Below, one piece after another: positions 12,601 to 30,424 of a stretch of DNA of 64,000 nt. The notes beneath the pieces were generated by a model. That model was not told the DNA's origin. It did not search any database and saw nothing but the letters and a program-made list of their open reading frames with translations. Positions within the stretch are counted from its first letter, which is position 1. Each line of letters opens with the position of its first letter. The stretch covers positions 62,001-126,000 of the forward strand of contig NZ_JAFRSC010000026.1 in assembly GCF_017427765.1 (NCBI RefSeq), given 5' to 3'. Origin of the DNA: Methanobrevibacter sp. GTDB lineage: Archaea > Methanobacteriota > Methanobacteria > Methanobacteriales > Methanobacteriaceae. A program made the translations under genes and the position numbers.

Positions 12601-15600
12601 TTAACATTGCATTAGAAGATGGTATCGGAACACTTACAACTTCATTGCCTTACGGAAGCTACAGTCTGGATATAACTTATCTTGGTGATGAGAATTACAA
12701 TATGAACTCCACTACATGTGATTTCACAATTGTAGAGCCTGCTAAGGAAAGCACTCCAATCTCCTTGGATATTGTGACTGATGAGTACTATGTTGGAATG
12801 ACAGCTACTGTTAGTGATGTTGCAACCGGTCTTATCAAATTCCAAGTAATTGGTAGCACAGGAGAATACACGCTCTATGCGGACGTAATTGATGGTAAAG
12901 CTATTCTTGAAGATACTCTTCCAATTGGCGATTACAGAGTAATTGCAACCTATATGGGAGACAACAGGTTTAATACCAACATTACTTCTGGTGAGTTCAC
13001 TATTAGTGGTCATATTAAGAAGGATACTCCTATTAGTGCTCGTGCTGTTGTGAATGGAAACAGAGTTACTTTAACTGTTAAAGTTGATGATGACGCTACA
13101 GGATTTGTAAAACTGGCTATTGGTGGTACTGTTACAAATATTGAAATAGTTGATGGTGTCGCAACACTGACAACTGTATTGGTTCCAAACAGTTACTTAG
13201 TTGATGTTACTTATCTTGGTGATGACGACTTCAATATGAACAATACTAGAGTGACATTTACTGTAACTGATGTTGCTAAAAAAGATACTCCTATTGATCT
13301 TAACGTTACAGCTGGTGAAGACACTATCTGGATTACAGTTGATTTGGATAAAGATGCAACTGGATTAGTTAAACTCTATATGGTTTGGAAAGAAACAGGC
13401 GAAAACATTACTGCATACATGGATGTTATAGATGGTCATGTAGAAACATTAACTAACAGCCTTTTACCTGGAAACTATTCTGTTGTTGCAACATACATGG
13501 GTGATTCACTATTCAATACCAACACTACATTCAAGGACGTTGAAATAATTGGACATGTGATGAAAGATACTCCAATCACAGCAGATGTTGTTGCAAATGG
13601 AAACAGAGTTACTTTAACTGTTAAAGTTGATGAAAACGCTACTGGATTTGTTGAACTTCTATTTGGTGATAATGTATTTAACATTGCATTAAAAGATGGA
13701 ATTGGAAAACTTACAACTTCATTGCCTTATGGAAGCTACAGTCTGGATATAACTTATCTTGGTGATGAGAACTACAATATGAACTCCACTACATGTGACT
13801 TCACAATTGTAGAGCCTGCTAAGGAAAACACTCCAATCTCCATGGATATTGTGACTTATGAAGATGAGGTGTGGATGACTGTTAGTGTTGATGATGCTGC
13901 AACCGGTCTTGTTAAATTCCAAGTAACTGGTCCAGAAGAATTTACACTATATGTGGATGTAATTGATGGTAAAGCACTTGTTGATGAGGTTCTTTTACTC
14001 GGTGATTACAATGTAATTGTAACATATATGGGAGACGCTAGGTTTAATACCAATATTACTTATGGTGAGTTCACTATCAAAGGTCACATTAAGAAGGACA
14101 CTCCAATCTCAGCACATGCTGATGTGCTTGGAAACAGGGTTACTTTAACTGTGAATGTTGATGACGAAGCTACTGGTTTTGTAAAATTGGCCATTAGTGG
14201 CACTGTTACTAATATTGAAGTGGTGGACGGTGTCGCAAAACTGACAACTACATTACCTGCAAACAGTTACTATGTTGATGTAACTTACCTTGGTGATAAT
14301 GACTTCAATATGAACAATACCAGAGTGACATTTACTGTAACTGATGTTGCTAAAAAAGATACTCCTATTGATCTCAACATTGTAACTTATGAAGACGCTG
14401 CCTGGATTACAGTTGATTTGGATAAAGCTGCAACAGGATTGGTTAAATTCTACATGGTTTGGGAAGAAACCGGTGAGGAGTCTACTGTGTACATGGATGT
14501 TGTAGATGGTCATGTGGAAACCTTTACAAACAGTATTGCACCTGGAAACTATACTGTAGTTGCAACATATATGGGTGATTCAGTATTCAATACCAACACT
14601 ACTTCTGGGGATGTTGAAATCCTTGGACATGTGCTGATGGATACACCAATTACAGCAAATGTTGTTTCAAACGGAAACAGAGTCACATTGACTGCTAAAG
14701 TTGATGAAGATGCTACTGGATTTGTCGAACTCAAATTTGGTGATAATGTATTTAACATTGCAGTAAATGATGGAATTGCAACATTGACCACTTCATTGCC
14801 TTACGGAAGCTACAGCTTAGATATTACTTATCTTGGTGATGAGAACTTCAATAAGAACTCCACTAAACTCGAATTCACACTTGTAGAGCCTGCTAAGGAA
14901 AACACTCCAATTTCCATGGATATTGTGACTTATGAAGATGAGGTGTGGATGACTGTTAGTGTTGATGATGCTGCTACTGGTCTTGTTAAATTCCAAGTAA
15001 CTGGTCCAGAAGAATTTGCACTCTATGTGGATGTAATTGATGGTAAAGCGATTGTTGATGAGGTTCTTTTAACTGGTGATTACTCAGTAGTTGCAACATT
15101 TATGGGAGACGCTAGGTTTAATACCAATGTTACTTCCGGTGAGTTCACTATTAGTGGTCATATTAAGAAGGATACTCCTATTAGTGCTCGTGCTGACGTG
15201 ATTGGAAGCAGGGTTACTTTAACTGTGAATGTTGATGAAGATGCTACTGGTTTCGTAAAATTAACCATTAGTGGTACTGTTGTTAATGTTGAAGTTGTGG
15301 ATGGTGTTGCAAAACTGACAACTACATTGCCTGCAAACAGTTACTTTGCTGATGTAACTTATCTTGGTGATGAAGACTACAATATGAACAGCACTCAAGT
15401 GACATTTACCATAACAGAAGTTTCCAAACAAAATACTACTATCGATCTTGACATTGCAGTTTATGAGGACACTGCTCTAGTTATGGTTGATGTTAATAAA
15501 GCTGCAACCGGATTGGTTAAACTCTATATGGTCTGGGAAGAAACCGGTGAGACCTATACTATGTATATGGATGTTATAGATGGTCATGTAGAAACATTAA

Positions 15601-16826
15601 CTAACCTCATTGAACCTGGAAACTACACTATAGTTGCAACATACATGGGTGATTCAGTATTCAACACTAACGCTACATCTAAAGATGTTGAAATCATTGG
15701 TCATATCAAGAAGGATACTCCAATTGATGCTAATGTTGAAACCAGTGGAAATAATCTTACATTAACTGTTAAAGTTGATGAAAATGCTACTGGATTTGTT
15801 GAAGTCAAATATAATGATACTGTATTCAACATTGCATTAAATAATGGAACTGGTGTATTAAATATTGCATTGCCTACCGGAAGTTACAACCTGGATATAA
15901 CTTATCTCGGTGATGAAAACTTCAATCAGGCTAATACATCACAATCATTCAACATAGGTAAAAAATCTAGTGAATTTAAAGACATTACCGTAAGCGATAA
16001 TGGAACTGTTGTTGTCGTTTTGGTTGATGGTGATGGAAAAGGCATTGCAAATGTAAATGTTTCATACACAATCAATGGTGAATTGAAAACAACAACCACC
16101 AATGATAAAGGTGAAATTGTAATTAATGCAACTTCAAACAGTATTGTTGTAATTGATTATGCAGGTGACGATCAAACCTTGCCGGCAAATGTGGTTATTT
16201 CATTAAAAGATTTAACTCCGGTAAGACGTGCAACTTCAATCATAGCAGATGATTATACTACATATGCTATTGATTATTATGTTGGTGAAAGAGGAGGATA
16301 CTATAAAGTTAAATTGGTTGATGATTCCGGTAACTTATTGGCTAACAAAGCAGTAAAAATCGGATTCAACGGTAGGGTATACAATACTACTACTGACAGT
16401 GAAGGTATTGCTAAACTGCAAATCAACTTAATTAAAGCTGGAACCTACACATTCGCTGTAGCATTCTTGGGAGATGAAAACTTCAACGCTTCATTTAGAG
16501 TAAATTCAATTACTGTAAATCTTAAGAAAACTTCCATAAGTGCTGCTGCTAAATCCTTCAAAGCATCTGCAAAAACAAAATCCTACACAGTAACCTTAAA
16601 AACAGACAAAGGATCATCCATTGATGGTAAAACATACATGGCATCCGGTAAAACTGTTAAACTTACTGTAAACGGAAAAACATATACTGCAAAAACCAAT
16701 GCTAAAGGTCAGGCTACCTTCAAACTTAACATCAACAAGAAGGGTGTCTACAATGCTTCTGTAAACTTCGCAGGTGACAGTACCTACAAGTCTTGCAAAG
16801 CAACCACAAAAATAACAATTAACTAG
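648..16826 (+). CDS. Giant adhesin-like surface protein (5392 aa)
   Basis: Secreted adhesin-like protein of the Methanobrevibacter type. Start: ATG with GAGGT 8 nt upstream. Residues 1-25 are a signal peptide ending near AISA-AD; an acidic linker follows to about 115. Six right-handed beta-helix regions begin near residues 120, 403, 879, 1628, 1935 and 2447. Most open with a line of the form YxTLxxAxxxxxxxDxIYVxxGxY and carry polymorphic-membrane-protein style GGAIY/NNxA repeats. Ig-like domains lie between them and from about 2810. Residues 3318 to about 5108 are five near-identical units of about 358 residues, each of four Ig-like domains of about 89 residues. The last 198 codons match the third adhesin without gaps. 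No membrane anchor or sorting signal is visible at the C-terminus. Likely role: adhesion to host, other microbes or substrate; the ligand is unknown. Confidence 0.85.
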   Translation: MTKKRMVILLMLLLVMIMSIGAISAADANETLQGEVSDTNIALTDEVGDTNIATTSSDLKQEVNDTSPAVESVNDVDEINVDDSRNENHKVGVASSASDDVLSATNDDLLKHSSKNFYYDGTGEWYYDLEDAWSAAEGNNGGTIKVWAGYYKYSDDDDDFEYKVNTAVTITLQPYGNGPVTFDGSESGWFLRVTNNNVKVTINDITFKNLKGRDGGAIEVEDSAQLTLNGCIFESNHASSDGVSYGLGGAIVVDEGTLVANNCRFINNKADRYGGAICIEDGGSVTLNSCYFEGNKKGSDANDFDDYDIDSDKSADWSFENCLFIGQGSLEIEVDAPAKSVEITPDVEDEGVNLVVLYKDGSYYTEKPWASFHSVEFTDLEKGTYTVYMMKDHEKRYIYSGTEFTIIEPYFVLDDKDVFETLSAAVNAIPNGGSGVITVEAGTYTDSSNFNVQIRNKVVTIMPKIISEYDDTVIFEGNSQNYLLDVGANAQLILEDITITGKFSNAALIFTSNLESSITDCEFNNIKNSQNQPGTPIDAQNSKLALNDTTFDLNGHIILKNTIATIEECTFTNNTGEQGGAINANPSSDLTITSSEFTRNDATTEGGAIYATNLKIEDSTFMLNTAETGGAIYITDSSDSLVNITSCVFDSNIATDYRNIYSKSSTRKFNLDFNEYDLNLSMKKKDASYGSEYILNGAFDWGSNLNNTFTLLSGTIDDENVFGDLLTVEDNKFNINLGVLSGGTHELAMEGMYTQGDSNDHFYTHVYYSDLNGNEFYLTNPAYLKVVISKAKILLNLEVKDVLIPEIPVLNLYANWDNNYTIFIGNKYYKLEVVNGKGSMQLTGLDLGNYSVVAMRDADENFDLAMNFTTFSVSKTYSNFLVVSTNVEYDTLAQAVANSGNEDTIYVKNGTYKDTKVVISNKTLDIIALETVVFDAQGSDANFIIVNKNAEVYIYGIAFRGIHNRNTNYGAIVNHGYLSLDSCNFTDNKITKTSFAGNGGAAIFSDGESLEIDNCNFINNVAPLKVSTAAVTSLGYEDISITDSKFINNTAREGGAVHFKNIAQFESAIYSCDFEQNTAVKGSAIYVGNNSRYASVSLSNFVKNNIKNSLGEKAQLEGGVIYVNANTTEVTIDIGLSNFENNANKDVDGGVLCLDGSSNAFIEGCAFNNNSGKLGSAILIKNPNNEKLTLLIDSSSFTDNHATTGAVATSPKVIALIEECIFINNTGENRHVYSNGFTVAHDTVFEVSDANLKASTVSYGNNSIIKGTANPGVNIYTLANLTIDGENVTAEIKNNAFTYNAGVLNHGKHTAVLNNIVDMNNNTYLMDSISITFKVNRIGIELNVSVDNITYGETLKVVETLPSTASGRISYQLNGKEYTKDELESLKLDAGKYTLVATYNNEDYAPSSSTVNFEVYKANPTISVEDVEVEDNGTVIVNIKTNVPSIYTIEIGDYKTDKYVNGSRAVEIDEIFEPGTYTIKVTSQERVNYKSNSTEATLKVTKNIPVVTLNASNKVTSPNEAIVGVSAPENAVGNITYTITDSNKNIVKTLTQSCRDDLIVSDLDDGDYEINAVFEGDDLYYSTSNIKMAPLSIMRSASNVNILSEDEDDYDDEYNYPFIYQEDEDSDYEYYETLEEAIDAASLMGGIITVRGGTYCYEDGNAGIDIEGEAEITIRAFAGEEVIFDCQHESDFLYLTYDTEVEIIEAAPPIPIIYTTEGPTITLENITVINGYANSDGGVIEMDAGTLTLLNCNFYNNEAEYGGVIYIGSVTSDQDADVIAYNTTFINNIARSEGGAIYISEGLEQFVSASFYACTFLDNYQGEDDERTMNYFAGDAADEIVKKACIFNAKDTVNWSMDKINQTITVIGTSTDVFDSIVLLYFDYIPLYSIYNNGSQTFNVTFEDVMGGNYTIGVMNDHDLNTYIFKDASFEMIVPNFIISADEVYENLTDAIGNVTDNGIIYANANYHIDENMEIDISKSFTLTNFRDRVVVFDGNSTNWFFTVAEGCNVVIENIEFVDGGIKDHASIENYGSLTLKNCSFTGFETETIIYNSGSLNITDGVFSLNSINNAIVLNNGKLFIDGAEFSSNVINTNSVVYNNGNAEIVASNFTENINNGNGGAIYNKNSLTIKDTVFNENEGINGGAVYNEGTLEVLNSTFEDNTANGYGGAIFNDGEANIANSSFSGSFSAKDGGAIYNNNMLIVNNSTLVANTATGNGGAIYNNKTLKLTESFFGINFAYEFANIYNAGDVQEFSNNTFDFYDVILYVPDGEYGIPTTITGTLDPQFNMDLQLTLPGFVNYKDADVTITDGIFEYNTGVLPKGAYDVILNEVIYDKNGNVYYGESIRDRLIVNKANVYINLTVEDIILKNADKGTPVLKINASKNGTFQLLFNNKLTSFTIADTTAEITLDSVGEGNYSVMVVREGDENYNDAANGTTFTVSEYMGNFIVNSTGGKFDTLVEAIRNSAAEDIIYVMEGSYSNLGNLGVSILGKKLSIISLGEVIFDANSTILMFIAVNEGSDVTICDAIFTGFDNRYKETVFLNRGNLTFDGCTFVKNNLVNDTHAGTNSEPFKGLIYSEGNLSIVNSEFYDNKIYHTYLVNSKSDIIINESTFENNTIDSWGRLINITNANSAKVISTEFVENTLGSGEVISVERCNDVLINAEFYDNTKGWGIFARNNSNLNIENSIFTGNSFSRIIETRNNVQNSISGCTFSNNTVNYIVLSEDKNLSVSESSFLANTLSDNPRSGESALFIGSNVNASVNECVFADNKGGDCRNIYSENPNVNITNTTFDTANVDYAVSDIDYGQTEIINGTIDIGTNFGFTVNLNINNKVYPVKVTNNNFTYTLSNLTGGDYDVVLNAQNRDSNTFVFNQITKTFTVNRIDPGLKVTISNITQGEKLEVNATLINNATDKILYQLDGKWYNKTQLENLTLTHGNYLVAASYGGNKNYYPVGIPVYVEVYKTTPNITVSDAEANYGEDIEINVKVDVADYYTVFINDSYDDAVSLYIDGSGTFTVPSKNFKPGKYEIKVYKIETDDYNEAYGYANLTVNENIGIFNISNDTIYYGENATVSVKVPENAYGNITYTVYDSNMNPVYTITQSCLEELVVPNLYVVDNVGKYLVTGTYEGDSYYTNKSIVYSGIILVMPKAVELNITVSNITYGEKAVVTVGADADGEYLVYVGNETYKVTVVNGSGNISVSDLIVGSYTVNATAIDGNYSAFEEAVFEVTSKQISVVVSVEDITYGDNATVVVQSDVDGEYIVSIRGENYTVSVNDGEGVKYIPDLNVGKNIFVSVTVVDGNYSAYNTTTFNVNKQDTPIELDIVTGENNVTMTVTVDEAATGLVKFQVTGEEEYTLYVDVIDGQAVLEDILDTGDYRVIVTYMGDNRFNTNITSEEFTLKGHIKKDTPITADSKVNGYRVTLTVKVDENATGFVRLTVGGTVANIEVVDGVATLTTSLMPNSYTVDVTYLGDDNYNTNSTIETFTVTEISKENTTIDLNIDVYEDTALVMVDINEAATGLVKFYMVGKESGEEYTMYMDVIDGHVETFTNSIEPGNYTVVATYMGDSVFNTNTTSQDVEILGHVMKDTPIDVTVETNANRVTLTVKVDENATGFVEVKSGLSVSNIALENGESTLTTVLPYGSYTLDVTYLGDYNYNKNSTKAEFTLVEPKKENTPIALDIVTDEYYVGMTATVSDKATGLVKFQVSGAEEYVVYSDVINGVAILEDTLIIGDYSVVATYMGDSRFNTNITYGDFTIKGHIKKDTPISASADVLGNRVTLTVKVDDNATGFVKLTVGGTVTNIEVVDGVATLTTVLVPNSYFVDVTYLGDDDYNMNSTKVTFTVTEASKKNTNINLDIITGEDNALIMVDLNKATTGLVKLYMLWKETGEEYTMYMDVIDGHVETFTNSIEPGNYTIVATYMGDSAFNTNTTSQDVEIFGHVLKDTPITASVVSSGTRVALTVKVDDEATGFVELKFGDNVFNIALEDGIGTLTTSLPYGSYSLDITYLGDENYNMNSTTCDFTIVEPAKESTPISLDIVTDEYYVGMTATVSDVATGLIKFQVIGSTGEYTLYADVIDGKAILEDTLPIGDYRVIATYMGDNRFNTNITSGEFTISGHIKKDTPISARAVVNGNRVTLTVKVDDDATGFVKLAIGGTVTNIEIVDGVATLTTVLVPNSYLVDVTYLGDDDFNMNNTRVTFTVTDVAKKDTPIDLNVTAGEDTIWITVDLDKDATGLVKLYMVWKETGENITAYMDVIDGHVETLTNSLLPGNYSVVATYMGDSLFNTNTTFKDVEIIGHVMKDTPITADVVANGNRVTLTVKVDENATGFVELLFGDNVFNIALKDGIGKLTTSLPYGSYSLDITYLGDENYNMNSTTCDFTIVEPAKENTPISMDIVTYEDEVWMTVSVDDAATGLVKFQVTGPEEFTLYVDVIDGKALVDEVLLLGDYNVIVTYMGDARFNTNITYGEFTIKGHIKKDTPISAHADVLGNRVTLTVNVDDEATGFVKLAISGTVTNIEVVDGVAKLTTTLPANSYYVDVTYLGDNDFNMNNTRVTFTVTDVAKKDTPIDLNIVTYEDAAWITVDLDKAATGLVKFYMVWEETGEESTVYMDVVDGHVETFTNSIAPGNYTVVATYMGDSVFNTNTTSGDVEILGHVLMDTPITANVVSNGNRVTLTAKVDEDATGFVELKFGDNVFNIAVNDGIATLTTSLPYGSYSLDITYLGDENFNKNSTKLEFTLVEPAKENTPISMDIVTYEDEVWMTVSVDDAATGLVKFQVTGPEEFALYVDVIDGKAIVDEVLLTGDYSVVATFMGDARFNTNVTSGEFTISGHIKKDTPISARADVIGSRVTLTVNVDEDATGFVKLTISGTVVNVEVVDGVAKLTTTLPANSYFADVTYLGDEDYNMNSTQVTFTITEVSKQNTTIDLDIAVYEDTALVMVDVNKAATGLVKLYMVWEETGETYTMYMDVIDGHVETLTNLIEPGNYTIVATYMGDSVFNTNATSKDVEIIGHIKKDTPIDANVETSGNNLTLTVKVDENATGFVEVKYNDTVFNIALNNGTGVLNIALPTGSYNLDITYLGDENFNQANTSQSFNIGKKSSEFKDITVSDNGTVVVVLVDGDGKGIANVNVSYTINGELKTTTTNDKGEIVINATSNSIVVIDYAGDDQTLPANVVISLKDLTPVRRATSIIADDYTTYAIDYYVGERGGYYKVKLVDDSGNLLANKAVKIGFNGRVYNTTTDSEGIAKLQINLIKAGTYTFAVAFLGDENFNASFRVNSITVNLKKTSISAAAKSFKASAKTKSYTVTLKTDKGSSIDGKTYMASGKTVKLTVNGKTYTAKTNAKGQATFKLNINKKGVYNASVNFAGDSTYKSCKATTKITIN
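10599..15971 (+). repeat. Five tandem ~1.07-kb coding repeats (20 Ig-like domains)
   Basis: Units start at codons 10599, 11673, 12747, 13824 and 14898 and measure 1074, 1074, 1077, 1074 and about 1074 bp. Each encodes four Ig-like domains in the order FQV-type, LTVGG/ISG-type, YMVW-type, LPYGSY-type, joined by KDTPI or KENTPI linkers. DNA identity between units is high enough by eye to allow recombination, so copy number may vary between strains or be miscounted in short-read assemblies. Confidence 0.85.
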
Positions 16827-19705: not shown

Positions 19706-20554
19706 TTAGTTAAATAGCCCATCAAACAATCCTTTTGCTGAATCAGTGGTATTAGTGCCATTTAAGACATCAGACATCTGTGATTCGTAATTGTTGATAT
19801 CACCTTGCACGTTTTGTATTTGTTCAATAGTTGTTGCAAGATTTTCAATGTCACTGTTTGTAATGTTAATATTATTGATGACAGTGTAATTTTGGATTAT
19901 ATTTACAATAGTTTGGTGGTCTGTAACGTTTTCCTCTTTAACTGTCTCTTTTACATCATCAACCATATCGGATAATTTTTCACTACTTACATTTGAATTT
20001 TTAACAATTTCTGCTTGTGTATAAATTTCGTTATTGGCTGCTTCTTTTACAGTGTCTGGAATTTCAACGTTTGTTGCAACTTCATATGAATTCATAATTC
20101 CAGCTAAAGCAGATTCACCGGTTGCAGTCACTGGACTTGTAACGTAAACGTGTCCTTTAGTGATTCCCGCTGATTTTAAAGCTGATAAATACATGTCTCC
20201 GGTAATGGTGGTGATTTTTGATTTGTCCACACTTACTTCAAGGTTATCATTATCATTCAAATCAACAAGCGCTGATGAAAATATCTGATTGGATCCGTAA
20301 GTTTTACCAGTTATTGTACTTGCAATTTTATTTACTTCACTTGCAGTGATTACTTTTGAGTTAGCATTTCCCAAATCGGCATGTGCTTGGTTTTTGAAAA
20401 ATGTGTCAACAGTATTCTTATAAGCTGAATTTGCATATGTGGTCTCGCCGTAGGTAACTACGACAGGATCAACTTGGCCTGAAAATCCGATAGGGATAAT
20501 CATTCCAACTACAATTATAGATAAAATTACTATACCTATTGTACTTTTGCGCAT
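19706..20554 (-). CDS. Secreted DUF1002-type protein
   Basis: 282 residues from the ATG at 20554. That start is chosen because GAGGTGAT (complement of 20558-20565) lies 3 nt upstream; an ATG nine codons earlier lacks a ribosome site. Residues 1-25 form a signal peptide or N-terminal anchor. The body, with GDMYLSALKSAGITKGHVYVTSP and GESALAGIMNSYE, resembles the DUF1002 (YpuA-like) family found mainly in Firmicutes. The C-terminal third is predicted helical, rich in Asn/Asp/Thr, and reads as coiled coil. Biochemical function is unknown; a surface role is likely from the signal peptide and the neighbouring CobN-like and adhesin genes. Confidence 0.7.
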   Translation of the reverse strand: MRKSTIGIVILSIIVVGMIIPIGFSGQVDPVVVTYGETTYANSAYKNTVDTFFKNQAHADLGNANSKVITASEVNKIASTITGKTYGSNQIFSSALVDLNDNDNLEVSVDKSKITTITGDMYLSALKSAGITKGHVYVTSPVTATGESALAGIMNSYEVATNVEIPDTVKEAANNEIYTQAEIVKNSNVSSEKLSDMVDDVKETVKEENVTDHQTIVNIIQNYTVINNINITNSDIENLATTIEQIQNVQGDINNYESQMSDVLNGTNTTDSAKGLFDGLFN

Positions 20555-20736
20555 ATTATCACCTCTAATATAATAGCACACTTTATTTATTTAATGTAGT
20601 ATTTAAATCTATCCTTTGTGCTTAATTTAATTTTAATATTAAAAAACTATAATTTGTTTAGTAAGTTTTATATGTTTTCAAATTAAATTTACAAATGTAG
20701 TAAAGATTATTGCTATATTTATAAAAAAGTGTAAAG

Positions 20737-20751
20737 GGAGGTGAAAATACG
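20737..20751 (+). promoter_or_regulatory. Ribosome binding site pointing to an ACG start codon
   Basis: GGAGGTGA at 20737-20744 is followed after AAAT by ACG (20749-20751), then GTA AAA TTA ACT AAT AAA in frame with the CobN-like gene. Initiation at ACG would supply a basic n-region (VKLTNK) to the signal peptide. The first NTG codon in frame, GTG 20770, is 27 nt from this strong site and gives a signal peptide without positive charges. Confidence 0.55.
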
Positions 20752-20769
20752 GTAAAATTAACTAATAAA

Positions 20770-23700
20770 GTGATATTTGCATTAATTATTTCTATATTGC
20801 TTCTATTTTCTGTAAGCTGCGTTTTTGCAGGAGATAACGAAACAGTATCTGAGGTTATGAGTGTTTCCAATAACTTGGCGACGAGTAATGACGTTGCTAA
20901 TGTTAATGAAATGCTTAACTCTCCATCAGATGAAGGGGTATTAACAGCAAGCAATGTAATTAATGTTCATGTTACGGATTCTTATAATGAAACTAGCAAC
21001 AAATGGGACGAAGACGGATTTAACCTGGCTGGAGCCACAGTTAAAGTCTATAATTCAAAAAACAAACTGATTTCAACATTGACTACGGATAAGTCAGGTA
21101 ATGTTGTAATTAAGAATTTAGGTTCTGACAAATACAGATTAGAGATTAGCTATTCTACATACGAGCCTATAACCCTTAAAGACATAGACTTCACTAAACA
21201 GAGCGGTTCAGTCAAAATTGACGATGTCATGTTTGTTCCGGATATATTATTATTGGTGGATTACAACTCCCACAATGAAAAAGTCGATGTGCTTATGAAT
21301 ATGTCGAAAAGAGTGGCTTATATCAGTACAACTGATTTTGATAAATCCAGAGCATGGTTAGTCGAATATGCAAATTTTATGCATATTGATATGTTTTCAG
21401 AGTCAGCATACAGCGTTTTAACAGGTCAGTATTTAAAGGAACTTCTTTCAAAATCTCCGGCTAATGCCAACTATAATGTAGCGTATACGTTCAGTGTTTT
21501 CTCACAGCAAATCCTGAATAACACCGGTTTGCACGTTGTCGGAGCTTCAGCAAAGAACAATACTTATGACACTATTGAAAACACTTATATTGGTTCTTAT
21601 TTCCAGGCTCGTGACATAGAGGAATCCGATATTCTGCAAAGCAACATGAAAAACTATCTTGCTTATGTCAAATATTTAATCAATCCTTTAAAATATGATG
21701 ATCCTACTCTTGATGAGAATAACGCTCCGTTAATGTCTCCGGAATGCGGATTTTACCATCCGGATTTAGGCATGTATACATTGGTGCCTGAAGGAAAATT
21801 AATCAATAGCTGGATTCGTGAAAATCCGGGTTACACCCATAGCTCAGACGGTAGTCTAAATTGGATGACCGAGAATTATGTCGTTTGGTTAATGGATGTT
21901 TTAGATCCTACAGAACTTTTTAAGAAGTTTGAAAAGGATTATATTGATAAATTCCATCCTGATAAACCATTTATAGCTATCGCTTCATATTATGGTGGTG
22001 AAGAAGTTTCAGATGCATTAATCAGAGGTTATGAAGCTAATGGCAGACCTGCTTTCAACGTGTTTAAAACAGGAACTCAGCCTCCTATGTCTTCAATCTT
22101 GAATAAGATTAACAATATTTCAACTGTAGGAATTTCTGCTGTAAACTCATTATGCAGCTGGTCTTTGGACTATGCAAATGGTACTGCAGAGCCTGATTTG
22201 ACTGATATTGATTTGCATGTATTGAAAGGAATCGTTGAGATTTCAGAATACAGTTACAACAGTGAATTGGGTCCTCAAGTCGAATGGACATATATGGTTA
22301 CTTATCCTAGTTTTGAAGGTGTATTCGGTCAAGTCGCTTTATCATGGGTTGACCGCTTAGGAAAATCCCATGTGATTCAGGACGGTGTGGATAAGATGGT
22401 TCAGCTGAACTGTAAATGGGCTGATTTGCATGATTTAGAAAACTCTGATAAGAAAGTTGCAGTAATGCTTTATAACTATCCGCCGGGTAAGGCCGAAATC
22501 GGCGCTTCATATTTGGACGTGTTTACAAGCGCTTATGAACTGCTGCTTCAGCTATATGTTCAGGGATATGATATCGGCGGTTCTATAGAGTATTCCAATT
22601 ATTATAATAATACGTATGAATGGTTAATCAAATCAAATGAAGGTCATAAAATCAACAAAACCCTTACAAAGCTTATTTCAGTATATAATTTAACTCAAAT
22701 AATCTTTGATATGAACAATAAAGGTTCATGGGCTTCAGGATTGCTTGAAAAATACGTTGAAGAGAATTGGGATGAACTGATGGCTCATCATCAATTGATT
22801 TCACTTGAAGAGTTTGAGCATTTGACCTCAGATATCAGGGATGAATTATACGATAAGCTTATTGGGTATTGGGGAGACAATTTAGGCCCTGCAATGGTTT
22901 ATAAGAATAAATACATTGTAATTCCGGGTGTATGGTTCGGTAATGTGTTCATTACTTTCCAGCCAAGTAGAGGTTGGGAAGAGGTTCAGGATTACCACAG
23001 CCTGATTATTCCGCCACATCAGCAGTATGTTGCATTTTACAAATGGATGGAAAAATCAGCCAAAATTAATGCTATTGTGAGTATGGGTACTCACGGTACT
23101 TTGGAATGGCTGCCTGGTATTAACCTTGGGGCATTCCCTGGCGATTGGACCTTTGAATTGTCATTGATTCCAACTGTATATCCTTATATTGTATCAAACC
23201 CTGGTGAAGCAATGGTTGCAAGAGATAGAAGTTCTGCACTGTTAATTACTCACATGACTCCAGCTATGGTTTCATCTGAGTTATATGGTAATTACACTAC
23301 TTTAAAAAATTACATCAATTACTATAAGGAACAACTGGCAGTTAATGTTACATCAAATGCAGAATCCTATAAAAATAAGATTTTGAATTTGGCTCCGGCA
23401 TTAGGTTTTAGAAATATATCCGGCAACGAATCATTCTCAGACTATATTGATGAGCTGCACCATTACCTGGATGCAATGGAAGATGATTTCAATACTTTCG
23501 GTCTTCACACTTTAGGTAAGATATTGACAGGTTATGAGCTGGCTGAAGAAGTAATCACTATTGTGACTTCCCAGACTAAGATTTATGACCAGTTGGTGGA
23601 ATTCTTATACCCTAAACTGGCGGGAAAAAGTTTCTATAAGGAACTGCAAGGCGATTTTAAATATTCTAAAGAAGTGGATGCCGTCAAGGCCTACTTTAAA

Positions 23701-25620
23701 GATTATGCTTATCGTCTTGTCAACGGAACTTCCGTTAAGGATTTAAATAAGCAATTAGGTATCAAAGAGGGGTCTGCGTTATACAATTCAACCCTATACT
23801 GTGAAGATGTCATTGCCAATATTGAAAGGAACAATGAATGGAATGCGATTCTGCTTTCTTTAAGCGGACGCTATGTGAAATCAGGATTATTCGCTGATCC
23901 GTCCTATGGTGATTCAATACCTACAGGATACGACGGTTATGCTTCTGATCCTACAAGAATGCCTTCTCATGCGGCTTATGAATCTGCTGTAAATATAGTT
24001 AACATGCTTCTGGCTAATTACTATGAACAGCACGGCAAATGGCCGGAATTGACTTCTTTAATCTTATGGGGTACTGAGATTTCCAGAACTGAAGGAATCG
24101 GTGTTGCCGAGTTCATGTACCTGTTAGGCTGTAAACCTGTATGGGCTGACAACGGTAAGGTACTTGGAGTTGAGCAAATCCCATTAAAAGATTTGAATGT
24201 GACTTTAAATAACGGTTCTGTTGTTAATAGACCAAGAATTGATGTATTTGCAAGTATGGTTACAAACAATAAGGATTGGATTACCTGGATGCTGACTTCA
24301 GTCAAGTTGGCAGTTAACGCTACAGGCGAAGATGCAACAAACAATTACGTTAAAAAGCATTACGCTGAAAATCCTACTTTAGACAGATTGTTCGGTCTTC
24401 CGGGCAATGTGCTGGAAGGAACCGGTATGTCTAATCTTATTCCGAACACTGCTGATTGGGATATTTCATCTGTAAATGAGTATGCTATGGATATCTACTT
24501 AAGTAAAGTGTCTTATTCATGGACTCTTGATGAAAAGGGAAATGTTGTTGTAACCAACCAGAAAGAGAATTACAAATATTTGCTTGATAAGGTAGATGTC
24601 ATTACTCAAAACTTTGACAGTTCATGGAGATTATTCGATTCCGATGATTATTATGATTGGTTTGGCGGATTATACAATGCTGCAAATGTATTGAAAAAGC
24701 AATCAGGTAAAGAAAGACCAGATACTGCATTTTTCGATATTAGGAACAAAAATAACTATATTTCAAGAACTTATAAAGAGGAAATTGATTTTGAAGTTAG
24801 AAGCATATTGTTAAATCCTCAATATATCAATGCATTGGTCAATTCTCCTGCAGGAATGAATGCTTATGCATCCAGATTCCAAAACTTCTATGCGAGTACA
24901 GTCATTGGTGGTGAAAAACTGAATAAAGAACTTGGTAATCAGTTGGCTGACACCATTATGGGAATCAATTCCGGTGTCACTAATGCACAATTGGCTGCAG
25001 GTTCCCAATCTTCAACCGCCTGGATGATTTACATGGCTCAGCAAGGAATTTGGGAAGGAGATGCTAAAACAGTTCAGAAATTAGTGGATTCATATATGCA
25101 AAGCGTAATCAATTATGGTGTTGCATGTTGTCACCACACCTGTAAAAACCTTGCTTGGAATGCGGAAATCATTCAATTGAGTTCCTTAACTCCTGCTCAA
25201 AAGCAAAAATTCGCTGAAATTCTTGCTCAGGCAACAAATACTGATCCTTTATATCAGGACCAGTCCAATAACGGCAATCAAGGTCAGTCCAGTAACGGAA
25301 ATCAGAATGCTAATACGCTATCAAACAATACTTCTCAAAAACAGTCAGAAGGATCCAGTTCAGGAGGCAGAACTGCATTTGGTTTGGACCCTTCACAAAG
25401 CGGTAATGCTAAAGATGCTTCAGATTCACAAAGTTCCCAGGATTCTTCCGGACAATCCGGTGCTAAATCCTATGAGATTTCAGAGAAATCCGCATCAAAA
25501 TCTGCAAGCTCTACAGAATCCAGCATGCCAATATTTGTTATTATTGCAGTAATTGTACTGATTGCGATATTTTTAGCAGGTTACTGGCGTAATAATGAAG
25601 ACGATTATGATGATTATTAA
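20770..25620 (+). CDS. Surface-tethered CobN/BchH-like chelatase subunit
   Basis: 1616 residues from GTG 20770; the true start is probably ACG 20749 (see ribosome site). A signal peptide (about 1-20) precedes an Asn/Asp linker, a CarboxypepD-regulatory-like beta-sandwich (about 60-145) and a long CobN/BchH domain (about 150-1460) with the family hallmark HGTLEWLPG at 775-783 and YPYIVSNPGEA after it. A cluster CCHHTC lies at 1453-1458. A Ser/Gln/Asn-rich stalk (about 1485-1585) leads to one membrane helix and a short acidic tail (DDYDDY). CobN inserts cobalt into hydrogenobyrinate diamide and BchH inserts Mg into protoporphyrin, both with AAA+ ATP-driven partners in the cytoplasm. Here the topology puts the domain outside the cell, and no AAA+ partner is nearby. 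Handling of tetrapyrroles or metal at the surface is an inference. Confidence 0.8.
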   Translation: MIFALIISILLLFSVSCVFAGDNETVSEVMSVSNNLATSNDVANVNEMLNSPSDEGVLTASNVINVHVTDSYNETSNKWDEDGFNLAGATVKVYNSKNKLISTLTTDKSGNVVIKNLGSDKYRLEISYSTYEPITLKDIDFTKQSGSVKIDDVMFVPDILLLVDYNSHNEKVDVLMNMSKRVAYISTTDFDKSRAWLVEYANFMHIDMFSESAYSVLTGQYLKELLSKSPANANYNVAYTFSVFSQQILNNTGLHVVGASAKNNTYDTIENTYIGSYFQARDIEESDILQSNMKNYLAYVKYLINPLKYDDPTLDENNAPLMSPECGFYHPDLGMYTLVPEGKLINSWIRENPGYTHSSDGSLNWMTENYVVWLMDVLDPTELFKKFEKDYIDKFHPDKPFIAIASYYGGEEVSDALIRGYEANGRPAFNVFKTGTQPPMSSILNKINNISTVGISAVNSLCSWSLDYANGTAEPDLTDIDLHVLKGIVEISEYSYNSELGPQVEWTYMVTYPSFEGVFGQVALSWVDRLGKSHVIQDGVDKMVQLNCKWADLHDLENSDKKVAVMLYNYPPGKAEIGASYLDVFTSAYELLLQLYVQGYDIGGSIEYSNYYNNTYEWLIKSNEGHKINKTLTKLISVYNLTQIIFDMNNKGSWASGLLEKYVEENWDELMAHHQLISLEEFEHLTSDIRDELYDKLIGYWGDNLGPAMVYKNKYIVIPGVWFGNVFITFQPSRGWEEVQDYHSLIIPPHQQYVAFYKWMEKSAKINAIVSMGTHGTLEWLPGINLGAFPGDWTFELSLIPTVYPYIVSNPGEAMVARDRSSALLITHMTPAMVSSELYGNYTTLKNYINYYKEQLAVNVTSNAESYKNKILNLAPALGFRNISGNESFSDYIDELHHYLDAMEDDFNTFGLHTLGKILTGYELAEEVITIVTSQTKIYDQLVEFLYPKLAGKSFYKELQGDFKYSKEVDAVKAYFKDYAYRLVNGTSVKDLNKQLGIKEGSALYNSTLYCEDVIANIERNNEWNAILLSLSGRYVKSGLFADPSYGDSIPTGYDGYASDPTRMPSHAAYESAVNIVNMLLANYYEQHGKWPELTSLILWGTEISRTEGIGVAEFMYLLGCKPVWADNGKVLGVEQIPLKDLNVTLNNGSVVNRPRIDVFASMVTNNKDWITWMLTSVKLAVNATGEDATNNYVKKHYAENPTLDRLFGLPGNVLEGTGMSNLIPNTADWDISSVNEYAMDIYLSKVSYSWTLDEKGNVVVTNQKENYKYLLDKVDVITQNFDSSWRLFDSDDYYDWFGGLYNAANVLKKQSGKERPDTAFFDIRNKNNYISRTYKEEIDFEVRSILLNPQYINALVNSPAGMNAYASRFQNFYASTVIGGEKLNKELGNQLADTIMGINSGVTNAQLAAGSQSSTAWMIYMAQQGIWEGDAKTVQKLVDSYMQSVINYGVACCHHTCKNLAWNAEIIQLSSLTPAQKQKFAEILAQATNTDPLYQDQSNNGNQGQSSNGNQNANTLSNNTSQKQSEGSSSGGRTAFGLDPSQSGNAKDASDSQSSQDSSGQSGAKSYEISEKSASKSASSTESSMPIFVIIAVIVLIAIFLAGYWRNNEDDYDDY

Positions 25621-25795: not shown

Positions 25796-28700
25796 ATGAT
25801 TAAAAAAATTAATATTTTTTTAGTGTTATTGCTGGTATTAATTTCCATAAGTGCAGTTAGTGCTGCTGATGGAAATATAACTGAATTAACCAGTAATAAA
25901 GATATTCAGGATACTATGGAAGTATCTGTTGATAAAGATATTAGTTATGGCTCTTCCAATTTAGAGGATTTGGCCTCAATTGAAAACACTTCTGTGATTA
26001 AGTCTTCCTCTCATACAATAACTGAAAGCAATTACAATCAATATTTCAGTTCTTATGATGGAAAATTGGTATCTTCAAGCGTAAATCCAGGAGATACAAT
26101 TGTATTGCAGGGAACTTTCACAGATAAATCATTTGTTTTTGAAAAGCAAGTCAACATTGTTGGTGATTCAACATCTTTGAAAAATTCAATGATTACATTG
26201 TTGACCGGGGCTTCAGGAAGTTCTATAGCTAATCTGAATATTGCAAATACAAAGGATACAACCTACGGTATATTTTTAAATAGCGCTAATAACTGTTCAA
26301 TTAAGGATTGTACAATAAAAAATACCGGAATGTCTTCATATTGTATTTGTGTTGCTAATGGAGCAAATTATAATAATATTACTGGAAATGATTTGACAAC
26401 CTATGGTATTACATATGGTCATGGCAGTTTTACAAGATCCACTCCAACATTAATTCTAAGCGGTTCTCACTATAACTACATAGCTAATAACCACGTTGAA
26501 GCTGACGATGCAAATGGAATTTATTTATCCAGCTATTCTGGCGGACCGTTAAAAGGTGGAAACTCAAATTATAATACAATTTTCAATAATACTGTCCACT
26601 ATAACGTATTGCCTACATCATGGGCTTACGGTATTCAGGTCATGGGTAAAAATAATATAATTGACCGCAACACAGTCATTGGTGGTTATAGGGGTGTTTC
26701 TACTGCAGATAGTGGAAATACTATAATTAATAATTATATTATTAACATTACTGGAGCAGATTATAATCATCCTGGTGTTGAAACTGGTGGTGAATATGGT
26801 ATTGTAGCTTCATATAATTCCTATGTGGCTAACAATACAATTATTGGTTCTAAAATCATTTCTACAGGTGCTGGAATTACAGCTATTGACAATTCAATTG
26901 TGGAAAACAACTGGGTTAATGTAACCTTGAAAGGTAGAGGTATTGTTGGTGGAGGAAATAACGTAATTATTAGGAATAATGTTATTTTCACTGTATCTGG
27001 TTCAGGAATTTATCAAAGCGGTGAAGATTCTGGTTTGATTATCGATAACAATAATATCACTTCCGATTCTGGTGTGGGTATTTTAATTGAAAAATTAAGT
27101 TCAAAAAGAATGCCTAAAAATGTCACAGTTACTAATAACGTCATTTCAACTAGTAATAAATATGCAATTGATGTAGCTGGAGTTCAGGCTGATACTTCCA
27201 ATATTGATTATAAATCAAATAGTATTATTGGAAACGGTTTAGTTAACTCTCCTGCAGGTGTAATAGACACATCCAAACCGATTTATATATTTAAGGGAAC
27301 TACTCATACAATCACTCCTGAGAATATCCGTAAATACATTAATGAGAATGGCGGTTTAACTTCAGAGATTAGTGATGATGATATTTTAAACTTTGCAGGT
27401 GTGTTCAGCAATGAAGTAATATATGTTACAAAAGCAGTCAGAATTACCGGTAAAAATCCAATATTTTATAATTCCACTTTCAAGGTAACTTCCGGCGGAG
27501 TATTAATTGAAAACTTGACTATTATCAACAAAGCGGCTGAAAGAGTAAATGCCTGGGGTATTTTCATAAATCAGGCATCTGGTGTTAAAGTCACAAATAA
27601 TAAAATCAGTGTAAGTGATCCAAAAGCGGCTTATGCAGTTTATGTTTTACAATCAACTGATATTGATGTGTCAAACAATGAATTGACTTCTCAAGGAGAT
27701 TATTTAACTTTCACATTACTTTCCTATGCCTGTGAAGATTGTTCCTTTGAAAATAATGTGATAAAAACAATCGGTACTGGCCAGCCATACAGGTTCTCAC
27801 CTGAAAAATGCATTGACGGTAATGAATTAGTAATCAATGGCAGGTCATACTGTTTGGATGGTAATGAGTTAGTTATTGACGGTAAATCATACTGTATTGA
27901 CGGCAATGAATTAGTTATTGACGGTCAGTCTTACTGTTTGGATGGTAACGAGTTCGTCATAGATGGAACTGCCTACTGTATTGACGGTAATGAATTTGTC
28001 ATTGACGGTACAAGCTACTGCCTGGACGGCAATGAACTGACTATTGATGGGGTTTCATACCAGTTTAAAGATAACAAACTGACAATCAACGGAACTACCT
28101 ACTGTTTGGATGGTAATGAAGTGACCATTGGTGGAAATACTTACTGTCTGGATGGTAATGAAGTAACTATTGATGGTAAGGCATACTGTTTGGACGGCAA
28201 TGAACTTGTTATTGACGGTGTTCACTATCAGTTCAACAACAAAAAGTTAACAGTCAATGGCACTAGCTACTGTTTGGATGGTAATGAAGTGACCATTGGT
28301 GGAAATACTTACTGTTTGGATGGCAATGAGCTTGTAATTGATGGTAAATCCTATTGTTTGGATGGTAATGAGTTGGTTATTGACGGTACTCGCTACTGTG
28401 TAGACGGTAATGAATACTGTATGGATGGTGCACATGTTGTTTCTGAAATTTATCAAACTTACGGAATCTTATTGTTATACTCATCAAATAATTTAATTTA
28501 TGGAAATGATGTGAATGTCACCTCAAAACTCGAATCCCAGCAAGCAACCAAAGGAAACAATTCCTCTCAAAATTCCATTGTAGGTATTGACATATACTTT
28601 AACAGCCATAACAACACTGTTTCATACAACGATGTTTACCTAAAAGCTAATGATAATTACATTTATGGAATGGGCGTTTTAGGTTATTACACCGGACACA

Positions 28701-30424
28701 GTGCTCCTGTAGGTCAGGGTGCCACCAACAATGCATTCGTTGGAAATCAGATAACCATTGATGGAGTTTACTGTGTTGAAGGTATCATTATAGGTGATGA
28801 ATCCGAAGATACATTTGTAGAAGATAACGTGTTGAATTTAAAATCAGATGCTGTAGTTTATGGAATTTATTTCGAAATGTCTCATAAATCCACTGTTAAA
28901 AACAACGAGCTCAATTTAAATTCACAGGCAATCTACGGTATTGAAGGATACGGTTCCAACAATAACACTGTATTGGACAATACTGTTGATGCCAACGCTA
29001 AAGACGTCTATGGTGTAATTTTCTTAAATGGAAACGACAACATCATTACAGGCAATAAAATTAATGCTAACGGCAATGGTGAAGCTATTGATACTGCAAT
29101 CCTGGATTCTATTAAACCTGGCAATGCGGGAATTATTCTGATGGCTAATTCTACCGGTAATTACATTGCAGATAACGAAGTAAAATCAACTAAAGGTTAT
29201 GCAATTTCTTTAGATGATGAAGCGATTAACAATGTCATTGCTGATAACTATCTGAACTCAGAAAAAGGCGTTGCTAATAAAGCTGTCAGTAATGCTAAAA
29301 ACAACAATGTTTCAGACAATTATATCTATATTGCAGATGCTACTGCTGAAGATGTTTCAGTTAAATATAGAGGAACCGGTGAATTCAAACTGGTCACAGA
29401 TAAAAAAATGGATGGTGCTATTGTCAAATTCTATGATCTTGATGGTAAATATCTGGTTCAGTCAACAGTGTCAAATGGCCTAGCTGTTGCAAAATATAAA
29501 TTTGATGCATCATATACTCCTTCCCAATATCTGTTTACAGCCAAAATATTCAAGGAAGATTACAAGGCATCTTCTTTCGATATTAATGTTTTCGTATCTA
29601 AAAGCAACATGAAAATTAATGTCGCTGCTGTAAGCATTGGACAGGGGGATAAAGGAAATGTTGTTGCAAAAGTTTTAGATGAATTTGGAAATCCAATCAG
29701 TGGCGTATCAGTGACATTCAAACGTATAAATTCAGCAGGAAGAGCTGTAACTATGGGCAGCGCAAAAACCAACAGCAATGGTGTTGCCACACTCTCATAT
29801 TCCGTTGGAGCATCATTAAATAAGGGAACATACTCCATGACTGCTGAGGTGGCAAATCAGGATAACTATAATGGTGCAAAAATCACTTCCAAATTAACTG
29901 TCAAAGAAAAGATATCATTTGTCGGTGCTAAAAACTATAATGTTTATTATGGTAACACAGTAACTTACAAAATACAGATTAAGGATGCAAATACCAAAAA
30001 ACCGCTTTCAGGAAAATCAGTTACCTTTAAAATCAACGGTAAATCCAAAACAGTTAAAACAAATAAAAACGGATATGCTTCTTATTCTGTTAAATTGGCT
30101 GCAGGATCATACACCATTACAGCTTCATGCAATGGTTATTCCTCATCTAAAAAGATTACTTTCAAACCTACTTTGACAGCTAAGGATATTTCCAAGAAAA
30201 AATCCAAAACTACAAAATTCACCGTTAAGCTAGTGGATAAAAATGGTAAGATATTGAAAAACAAGAAGATTACCTTCAAGTTCAAAAATAAAAAATATAC
30301 TGCCAAAACCAATAATAAAGGTATTGCTACATTATCTCTTAATAATATAGCAGTCGGCAAATACCCAATTACATCTAGTTACGGTGGATGCACTATTAAA
30401 AATACAATTACAATAAAAAAATAA
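25796..30424 (+). CDS. Adhesin-like protein with a cysteine-ladder repeat
   Basis: 1542 residues. Start: ATG with GAGGT 6 nt upstream. Signal peptide 1-24 (ends SAVSA-AD). Residues about 80-660 are a right-handed beta-helix with NosD/pectate-lyase style turns (NNxIxxN, GIFLNSANNCSI). Residues 672-880 are a tandem 14-residue repeat of the form CLDGNELVIDGKSY, each starting with Cys. The beta-helix resumes from about 890 to 1180. The C-terminal part has a linker, a Big_1-like Ig domain (about 1272-1370) and two small Ig-like domains of the KxVTFKINGKSKTVKTNKNGYA type. The Lys-rich C-terminus lacks a membrane helix or sorting motif. Expected role: surface adhesin; the repeat may be disulfide-linked or bind metal. 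Confidence 0.82.
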   Translation: MIKKINIFLVLLLVLISISAVSAADGNITELTSNKDIQDTMEVSVDKDISYGSSNLEDLASIENTSVIKSSSHTITESNYNQYFSSYDGKLVSSSVNPGDTIVLQGTFTDKSFVFEKQVNIVGDSTSLKNSMITLLTGASGSSIANLNIANTKDTTYGIFLNSANNCSIKDCTIKNTGMSSYCICVANGANYNNITGNDLTTYGITYGHGSFTRSTPTLILSGSHYNYIANNHVEADDANGIYLSSYSGGPLKGGNSNYNTIFNNTVHYNVLPTSWAYGIQVMGKNNIIDRNTVIGGYRGVSTADSGNTIINNYIINITGADYNHPGVETGGEYGIVASYNSYVANNTIIGSKIISTGAGITAIDNSIVENNWVNVTLKGRGIVGGGNNVIIRNNVIFTVSGSGIYQSGEDSGLIIDNNNITSDSGVGILIEKLSSKRMPKNVTVTNNVISTSNKYAIDVAGVQADTSNIDYKSNSIIGNGLVNSPAGVIDTSKPIYIFKGTTHTITPENIRKYINENGGLTSEISDDDILNFAGVFSNEVIYVTKAVRITGKNPIFYNSTFKVTSGGVLIENLTIINKAAERVNAWGIFINQASGVKVTNNKISVSDPKAAYAVYVLQSTDIDVSNNELTSQGDYLTFTLLSYACEDCSFENNVIKTIGTGQPYRFSPEKCIDGNELVINGRSYCLDGNELVIDGKSYCIDGNELVIDGQSYCLDGNEFVIDGTAYCIDGNEFVIDGTSYCLDGNELTIDGVSYQFKDNKLTINGTTYCLDGNEVTIGGNTYCLDGNEVTIDGKAYCLDGNELVIDGVHYQFNNKKLTVNGTSYCLDGNEVTIGGNTYCLDGNELVIDGKSYCLDGNELVIDGTRYCVDGNEYCMDGAHVVSEIYQTYGILLLYSSNNLIYGNDVNVTSKLESQQATKGNNSSQNSIVGIDIYFNSHNNTVSYNDVYLKANDNYIYGMGVLGYYTGHSAPVGQGATNNAFVGNQITIDGVYCVEGIIIGDESEDTFVEDNVLNLKSDAVVYGIYFEMSHKSTVKNNELNLNSQAIYGIEGYGSNNNTVLDNTVDANAKDVYGVIFLNGNDNIITGNKINANGNGEAIDTAILDSIKPGNAGIILMANSTGNYIADNEVKSTKGYAISLDDEAINNVIADNYLNSEKGVANKAVSNAKNNNVSDNYIYIADATAEDVSVKYRGTGEFKLVTDKKMDGAIVKFYDLDGKYLVQSTVSNGLAVAKYKFDASYTPSQYLFTAKIFKEDYKASSFDINVFVSKSNMKINVAAVSIGQGDKGNVVAKVLDEFGNPISGVSVTFKRINSAGRAVTMGSAKTNSNGVATLSYSVGASLNKGTYSMTAEVANQDNYNGAKITSKLTVKEKISFVGAKNYNVYYGNTVTYKIQIKDANTKKPLSGKSVTFKINGKSKTVKTNKNGYASYSVKLAAGSYTITASCNGYSSSKKITFKPTLTAKDISKKKSKTTKFTVKLVDKNGKILKNKKITFKFKNKKYTAKTNNKGIATLSLNNIAVGKYPITSSYGGCTIKNTITIKK
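27809..28435 (+). repeat. 42-bp coding repeat, 14 full units plus partial units
   Basis: Fourteen consecutive 42-bp units run from TGC 27809 to 28396, each encoding C-[LI]-D-G-N-E-x-[VT]-I-[DG]-G-x-x-Y. Two short variants follow (CVDGNEY and CMDGAH). Units 7 and 11 replace the first Cys with Gln and change the turn (QFKDNK, QFNNKK). Units 6-8 and 10-12 resemble each other, which suggests duplication of a larger block. The array interrupts an otherwise continuous beta-helix. Confidence 0.9.

Follow-up and report, generated by a model that had tools for sequence, protein, structure and literature searches.

The stretch analyzed here, a window of 64,000 nucleotides, lies on contig C44 of a Methanobrevibacter metagenome-assembled genome (MAG; G000, 2.53 Mb) whose nearest relatives are rumen and gut MAGs. 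It encodes a protein of the CobN/ChlH fold, hereafter type A, between a divergently transcribed gene for a secreted DUF1002 protein and a gene for a beta-helix surface protein (Table 1). The chelatase domain scores 557 bits against PF02514 (curated cut-off 24.5) and covers positions 11–1012 of the 1090 in that Pfam profile. A first, sequence-only reading had described a signal peptide, a beta-sandwich, a CobN/BchH region with HGTLEWLPG, a stalk, one transmembrane helix and an acidic tail, and we found every one of these elements; the stalk comprises 90 residues, among them 27 Ser, 11 Gln, 10 Asn and 10 Gly.

That reading also placed the chelatase domain outside the cell. Such surface display is well supported by the predicted type I topology, which a hydrophobicity scan returned for essentially all full-length orthologues, by an extracellular-type composition (K+E+R content of 13.5%, versus 22–26% in cytoplasmic paralogues), and by the conserved place of the gene among surface proteins. 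Glycosylation sequons are numerous, yet not above the expectation from the protein's own composition (z 0.64), and were not used as evidence. Because type A orthologues of about 60–94% identity share the same synteny in 17 other Methanobrevibacter-type contigs, the features of the protein are far beyond chance. The conserved order is Dus, divergent DUF1002, CobN, beta-helix protein and a second surface protein; the neighbors are surface proteins, not cob genes, and where the first reading spoke of adhesins, beta-helix and Ig-like surface proteins surround the gene.

Table 1. Features of the type A locus (window coordinates)
Feature	Position	Strand	Basis
Divergent secreted DUF1002 protein, conserved neighbor	19706..20581	-	Pfam, E 1.8e-49; synteny
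TATA-box-like element TTTTATATG, kept in orthologues	20666..20674	+	Alignment of upstream regions
Short dyad in the 5'-untranslated region, GTAGTAA-AGATTA-TTGCTAT	20697..20716	+	Pattern search of orthologue leaders
Shine-Dalgarno sequence GGAGGTGA, conserved	20737..20744	+	
Predicted near-cognate start codon, ACG	20749..20751	+	Same in-frame position in orthologues
Exported CobN/ChlH-fold protein, type A, 1623 aa	20749..25620	+	Pfam and sequence
Signal peptide TVKLTNKVIFALIISILLLFSVSCVFA, predicted cleavage after CVFA	20749..20829	+	Hydrophobicity scan
CarboxypepD_reg beta-sandwich domain	21007..21201	+	Pfam PF13620, E 7.7e-9
CobN-Mg_chel domain	21643..24846	+	Pfam PF02514, E 9e-167
IVSMGTHGTLEWLPG, containing HGTLEWLPG: H782 (HmuS His-538) and E786	23074..23118	+	Alignment
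NPGE motif: E820 (HmuS Glu-577)	23188..23235	+	Alignment
RPRIDVFASMVTNNKDW, clade A substitute for the superfamily SG/CGxxRD motif	24229..24279	+	Alignment
DSDDY motif: D1299/D1300 at HmuS Asp-1208/His-1209, as in CobN	24592..24681	+	Alignment
ACCHHTCKN motif near the membrane, exported forms only	25123..25149	+	Alignment
Low-complexity Ser/Gln/Asn/Gly stalk	25255..25524	+	Sequence
C-terminal transmembrane helix	25525..25581	+	Hydropathy 3.06
Short acidic cytoplasmic tail YWRNNEDDYDDY	25582..25617	+	Sequence
Downstream beta-helix surface protein, Cys-bearing beta-roll repeats (YCLDGNELVIDG), linked to the type A gene	25796..30424	+	Pfam; synteny, repeats

Conserved metal-site residues and a C-terminal cysteine motif

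The closest solved sequences are those of CobN (7c6o), ChlH (4zhj) and HmuS (9d26), the last a Bacteroidota protein that takes iron out of heme and needs no ATP (PMC12583661). Aligned with all three, the window protein keeps H782 (within GTHG; its equivalent His-538 is essential for turnover in HmuS), E786, E820, an LPTG-like motif, RPRID and the acidic DSDD pair, and orthologues show little or no variation at H782, E786, E820 and the DSDDY carboxylates. Loss of the metal-site residues had been named beforehand as an observation that would count against a chelatase; for the main ones (H782, E786, E820 and D1299/D1300) the opposite was found.

Near the membrane, the alignment sets HmuS PSCSGFVCDN against GVACCDCSCGN and GVACCHHTCKN of the archaeal exported proteins, with C-x4-C-x-N as the common element, and no counterpart was seen in CobN or ChlH. 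This cysteine motif, which exported orthologues keep without exception and cytoplasmic paralogues lack, is compatible with either a metal relay or a disulfide.

An AlphaFold2 model of the C-terminal half (predicted local distance difference test, pLDDT, 66; predicted template modeling score, pTM, 0.64) has HmuS as its top PDB match (E 9e-17), aligned over 460 columns versus about 415 for ChlH/CobN. A model of 1200 residues (21571–25170; pLDDT 56, pTM 0.41) was excluded from the fold search.

Exported and cytoplasmic forms in the Methanobacteriota

PF02514 proteins occur in 63 of 67 genomes of the genus. G000 encodes exactly one other (contig C40, 1688 aa), which likewise has a signal peptide, a stalk and a transmembrane helix. 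The exported layout read from the sequence alone is confirmed, but the protein is no lone oddity: G000 has two exported paralogues, and the family extends across the Methanobacteriota. Full-length PF02514 proteins of this phylum are of two kinds. Cytoplasmic forms (about 1165–1250 aa, K+E+R 22–26%) lack a signal peptide, a transmembrane helix and the C-terminal cysteine motif, while exported forms measure 1340–2200 aa, with K+E+R contents of 12–15% (nine proteins examined); ahead of the stalk, almost every one has GVACCHHTCxN, GVACCDCSCGN or a near variant of these.

The genes for two cytoplasmic CobNs from the order to which Methanobrevibacter belongs (loci L089 and L095) adjoin ChlD-type AAA+ genes (AAA_lid_2, VWA). 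No cytoplasmic CobN form was seen in Methanobrevibacter, and a ChlD query gave no matches in G000 and four other Methanobrevibacter genomes while matching strongly in five relatives that keep cytoplasmic CobN, so that the absence of an encoded AAA+ partner, first asserted from the sequence at hand, extends to the whole genome. Judged from these comparisons, Methanobrevibacter has lost both the cytoplasmic CobN and its ChlD-type AAA+ partner. CbiX is present in the genome.

In an unrooted tree of 45 sequences (756 columns), the type A proteins form a monophyletic clade A (bootstrap 100). Two further exported types, B and C, make up a second clade with HmuS (87), within which HmuS groups with type B (86), and CobN, ChlH and the cytoplasmic archaeal forms make up a third (88). 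On the tree and the motifs together, we rejected orthology of type A with HmuS. Export, the cysteine motif and the shared partners suggest that clade A and the B/C/HmuS group descend from an exported ancestor.

A DUF2162-ExbB-DUF2149 partner operon

The second exported CobN of G000 (L004:22-6840, on C40), which has a CCDCSC motif and HmuS as its closest solved structure, heads a CobN-DUF2162-MotA/TolQ/ExbB-DUF2149 operon at a contig end. A clade A orthologue from another genus (L123) heads a CobN-DUF2162-ExbB-DUF2149 operon, and at L113 and L117 two exported CobNs precede the same trio. For the window gene the trio is found in trans, as an orphan DUF2162-ExbB-DUF2149 operon on contig C5 (L133). 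In eight of eight genomes inspected among those with only the type A CobN, an orphan trio sits at this same conserved locus, and all ten genomes of this kind have exactly one strong DUF2162 each. Among the 90 genomes compared in the phylum, PF02514 and DUF2149 occur together in 79, CobN alone in one, DUF2149 alone in six and neither in four (Fisher p 4e-4, shared ancestry ignored); CobN therefore occurs without DUF2149 in one of 80 genomes.

The occurrence of DUF2149 without CobN is at least partly explained by other clients, such as that of a third module of G000, on contig C39 (L142:4900-11683), in which a 1012-aa surface protein with an FmdE domain, an HPGHG protein, a divergent DUF2162, ExbB and DUF2149 stand beside CbiM. 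Contig C49 bears a second copy of the DUF2162 and DUF2149 of this module. In Methanothermobacter-like relatives (G067, G070-G075, G079), several exported CobN paralogues per genome accompany a single DUF2149 locus, which suggests that one motor is shared by many exported CobNs.

In the hmuYRSTUV operon of P. gingivalis, the genes are annotated as HmuY, a TonB-dependent receptor, CobN, a hypothetical protein, ExbB and DUF2149 (PMC10434189), and HmuT has been described as a putative permease (PMC13227078). By gene order, the archaeal operon is colinear with hmuS-T-U-V, with DUF2162 (Pfam: 'predicted transporter') in the hmuT position. The parallel with HmuS, which the sequence-only reading had drawn, has become stronger: the partner genes and their order agree, a C-terminal Cys/Asn motif is common to both, and HmuS is the top structural match of the C-terminal half.

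As to the metal, an exported type C CobN of Methanothermobacter is followed on the same strand by FeoB (L092:3923-10258 and L112; Pfam for L092), CbiM lies near exported CobNs at L114 and L117, and BtuS proteins of M. barkeri respond to the iron/sulfur source (PMC10846266). Iron, cobalt and nickel are all possible for type A. No operator shared between the type A and type B genes and the orphan motor operon was seen on comparison by eye, and a literature search on DUF2162 returned nothing relevant.

Translation start and neighboring genes

The gene had originally been taken to begin at 20737, a position that belongs to the Shine-Dalgarno sequence; translation almost certainly starts at the conserved in-frame ACG 12 nucleotides farther on. 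Several orthologues (e.g., L008) have no in-frame ATG, GTG or TTG between the upstream stop and the signal-peptide core, and a GTG at 20770 of the window is disfavored because the positively charged n-region would be lost. In roughly 40 genes of clade A that have a strong Shine-Dalgarno sequence (orthologues L008-L054, L107, L108), the start position is occupied by ACG in about 24, by TTG and ATG once each, and otherwise by ATC, ATT, ATA, CTG or ACA; orthologues L081-L085, which start with ATG, lack that Shine-Dalgarno sequence. The start pattern GGAGGTGAAAANACG matches once in the window, and its one perfect match genome-wide is the type A gene. A near-cognate codon behind a strong Shine-Dalgarno sequence suggests deliberately weak initiation. 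Similar-looking starts are seen in some other surface genes of the compared loci (L115, L124, L125). A literature search on non-AUG starts in Methanobrevibacter yielded nothing relevant.

Of 36 distinct orthologue leaders, 32 contain the dyad ATAGTAA-loop-TTRCTAT at 16–27 nucleotides before the Shine-Dalgarno sequence, according to a search pattern that presupposed part of the stem. Its loop varies in length, and the stem is compensated in L054 and L107.

The downstream beta-helix protein contains an insertion, a beta-roll built from YCLDGNELVIDG-type repeats that each bear a single cysteine, for which a metal or redox role is possible; 12 relatives have it directly after the type A gene, and in L008 the CobN and beta-helix pair is present twice. 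Upstream of the region lies a surface-protein-like open reading frame of 5392 residues (648-16826). One contig labeled Acholeplasmatales (L015, CAJOOI010000130.1) bears methanogen CobN and adhesin genes and is probably a misbinned methanogen contig.

Proposed function and alternatives

We propose, giving the idea about an even chance, that type A is an exported, membrane-anchored metallo-tetrapyrrole dechelatase or metal harvester driven by ion-motive force rather than by ATP. It would be placed on the outer side of the single membrane, probably extend into the wall or across it, bind a metallo-tetrapyrrole and remove the metal as HmuS does with heme; the released metal would then be imported by a metal transporter. 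The DUF2162-ExbB-DUF2149 ion-motive-force complex, in the hmuT-U-V positions, would replace the AAA+ ATPases and ATP, being supplied to type A in trans from C5 and to the second exported paralogue in cis. Near the membrane, the CCHHTC motif may serve to accept the metal or pass it on. Of this picture, the sequences show the exported topology, the family membership, the retained main catalytic-site residues, the loss of the AAA+ partner, the operon linkage in relatives and the co-occurrence, whereas the coupling to ion-motive force, the removal of metal, the part played by the cysteine motif and the identity of the metal are inferences.

Several observations weigh against this proposal. Clade A stands apart from HmuS, which joins types B and C, and function is therefore not transferable by orthology. 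The SG/CGxxRD motif that follows RPRID, including the position of HmuS Ser-1067, is kept by CobN, ChlH, HmuS and most other paralogues but missing from each of the six clade A sequences that were aligned (VTNNKD in the window protein). In place of the HmuS motif LSLDHxxEFMGG the window protein has LFDSDDYYDWFGG, with Asp at His-1209 as in CobN, and the Met-rich insertion of HmuS (domain IV) is absent, this segment being, as read from motif coordinates, ~145 aa shorter (LTP to LPTG about 220 aa, versus about 365 in HmuS). The motor operon is not adjacent to the type A gene in most Methanobrevibacter, and only one DUF2162 is present in some of the genomes that have both CobNs. DUF2149 has no ExbD match in Pfam at E values up to 1, so the label 'motor' rests on ExbB; homology of DUF2149 with ExbD, lacking Pfam support, was kept only as an idea. 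Finally, as CbiX is present, cobalt insertion gives no reason for a type A protein. The tetrapyrrole or metal capture by a surface chelatase envisaged from the sequence is partly supported: the exported fold, the metal-site residues and the HmuS-like partners agree with it, and clade A lacks two HmuS pocket features.

The cleft is conserved but identical to that of no characterized member, which leaves room for another substrate or for binding without turnover. Type A could be a non-catalytic surface receptor for intact tetrapyrroles (corrinoid, F430 or breakdown products of F430, heme, derivatives of chlorophyll), which it would pass on to DUF2162 or to an ATP-binding cassette importer, with ExbB/DUF2149 driving release. 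The clade A changes at SGxxRD and HmuS His-1209, the Pfam name of DUF2162 and the second, non-substrate heme site of HmuS (PMC12583661) all fit this explanation; however, the near-invariant H782, E786, E820 and DSDDY carboxylates are more than binding alone seems to need, and FeoB and CbiM beside related forms point to free metal ions, so that we hold it to be somewhat unlikely. Were the cleft a relic and CCHHTC the working site, the protein might trap free Ni, Co or Fe at the cell surface in the manner of a metallophore. The distribution of the cysteine motif would suit such a trap, as would the third DUF2162-ExbB-DUF2149 module with its surface FmdE-domain protein beside CbiM, but a simple trap would have no need of the whole conserved chelatase fold and cleft motifs, and we think it improbable.

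It is very unlikely that the CobN fold is merely the scaffold of an adhesin or wall protein without a metal role: the conserved synteny among beta-helix and Ig-like surface proteins and the CarboxypepD_reg domain would agree with this, whereas the active-site conservation, the co-occurrence with the ExbB module and the orthologue within an hmuSTUV-like operon would not. The chance that type A is a genuine cobaltochelatase of cobalamin synthesis, with export mis-predicted, is close to nil. The NCBIfam models that the protein matches are indeed all of CobN/BchH, but the scores are far under the equivalog cut-offs, and the signal peptide and transmembrane helix are conserved in orthologues; a role in cobalamin biosynthesis was rejected on the missing AAA+ partner, the presence of CbiX and the wrong compartment.

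A broader form of the proposed dechelatase, which we advance tentatively and would sooner doubt than accept, is an archaeal counterpart of TonB energization, in which one or a few ExbB-DUF2149-DUF2162 motors act directly and in trans on several large proteins of the cell surface, both exported chelatases and FmdE-type metal binders, so that metal is extracted from tetrapyrroles outside the cell. Since these cells have no outer membrane, the assumption that HmuU/HmuV only power an outer-membrane receptor is called into question; if the counterpart exists, HmuUV of Bacteroidota would drive the dechelatase or permease instead of, or besides, that receptor. The 2025 HmuS paper left the archaeal use of many HmuS/CobN/ChlH homologues unclear and found complete hmu operons lacking in archaea (PMC12583661). 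Methanobacteriota hold an apparent S-T-U-V half of hmu, cleanly separate from the AAA+-linked cytoplasmic CobNs, and the question can thereby be tested in a relative that grows in culture, for example Methanobrevibacter smithii. If metal harvesting is confirmed, the methanogens of rumen and gut are rivals of the Bacteroidota for metal bound in tetrapyrroles, a rivalry that bears on how they obtain nickel, cobalt and iron for making methane.

Comparison with known systems

HmuS (hmuYRSTUV; PDB 9d26) resembles type A in having a class I chelatase fold, in being exported and membrane anchored, and in lacking an ATPase partner. The two also share ExbB and DUF2149 companions, a membrane protein at the hmuT position (in cis in L123, in trans on C5 here), the C-terminal Cys-x4-Cys-x-Asn, and equivalents of His-538 and Glu-577. 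Type A differs in the Asp at His-1209, the loss of SGxxRD, its separate clade and its partner operon in trans, and as the archaeal envelope has no outer membrane, the outer-membrane partners HmuY and HmuR are not expected. HmuS, which converts heme to protoporphyrin IX, has heme ligands Met-79 and His-254 at its head/neck; the alignment of the head domain with type A was not reliable.

The exported types B and C of Methanobacteriales agree with type A in layout, in the position of the cysteine motif and in their DUF2162-ExbB-DUF2149 partners, but group with HmuS and keep SGxxRD in most members; type B has CCDCSC, and type C occurs with FeoB or in double operons. The M. barkeri BtuS proteins named in PMC10846266 may belong with types B/C. 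BtuS is, as cited in PMC6460266, the third CobN type of Rodionov 2003, CobN-related, outside cobalamin synthesis and with a role in salvage.

CobN and ChlH/BchH have the same fold and the GxHG..E, NPGE-like and LPTG motifs, with DSDDY as in type A for CobN; unlike type A, they are cytoplasmic, AAA+ dependent, and without a signal peptide, stalk, transmembrane helix or cysteine motif. The cytoplasmic archaeal CobNs beside ChlD (L089, L094, L095), from the same class of archaea, have a homologous PF02514 core but are AAA+ linked and lack export signals and the cysteine motif. Against the NCBIfam equivalogs, the window protein scores 428 (cut-off 1619) and 330 (cut-off 822) for CobN, and 360 (cut-off 829) for BchH/ChlH TIGR02025. 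By these sequence comparisons, type A is a variant of the exported CobN-like (BtuS/HmuS) kind that falls outside HmuS, CobN and ChlH as defined.

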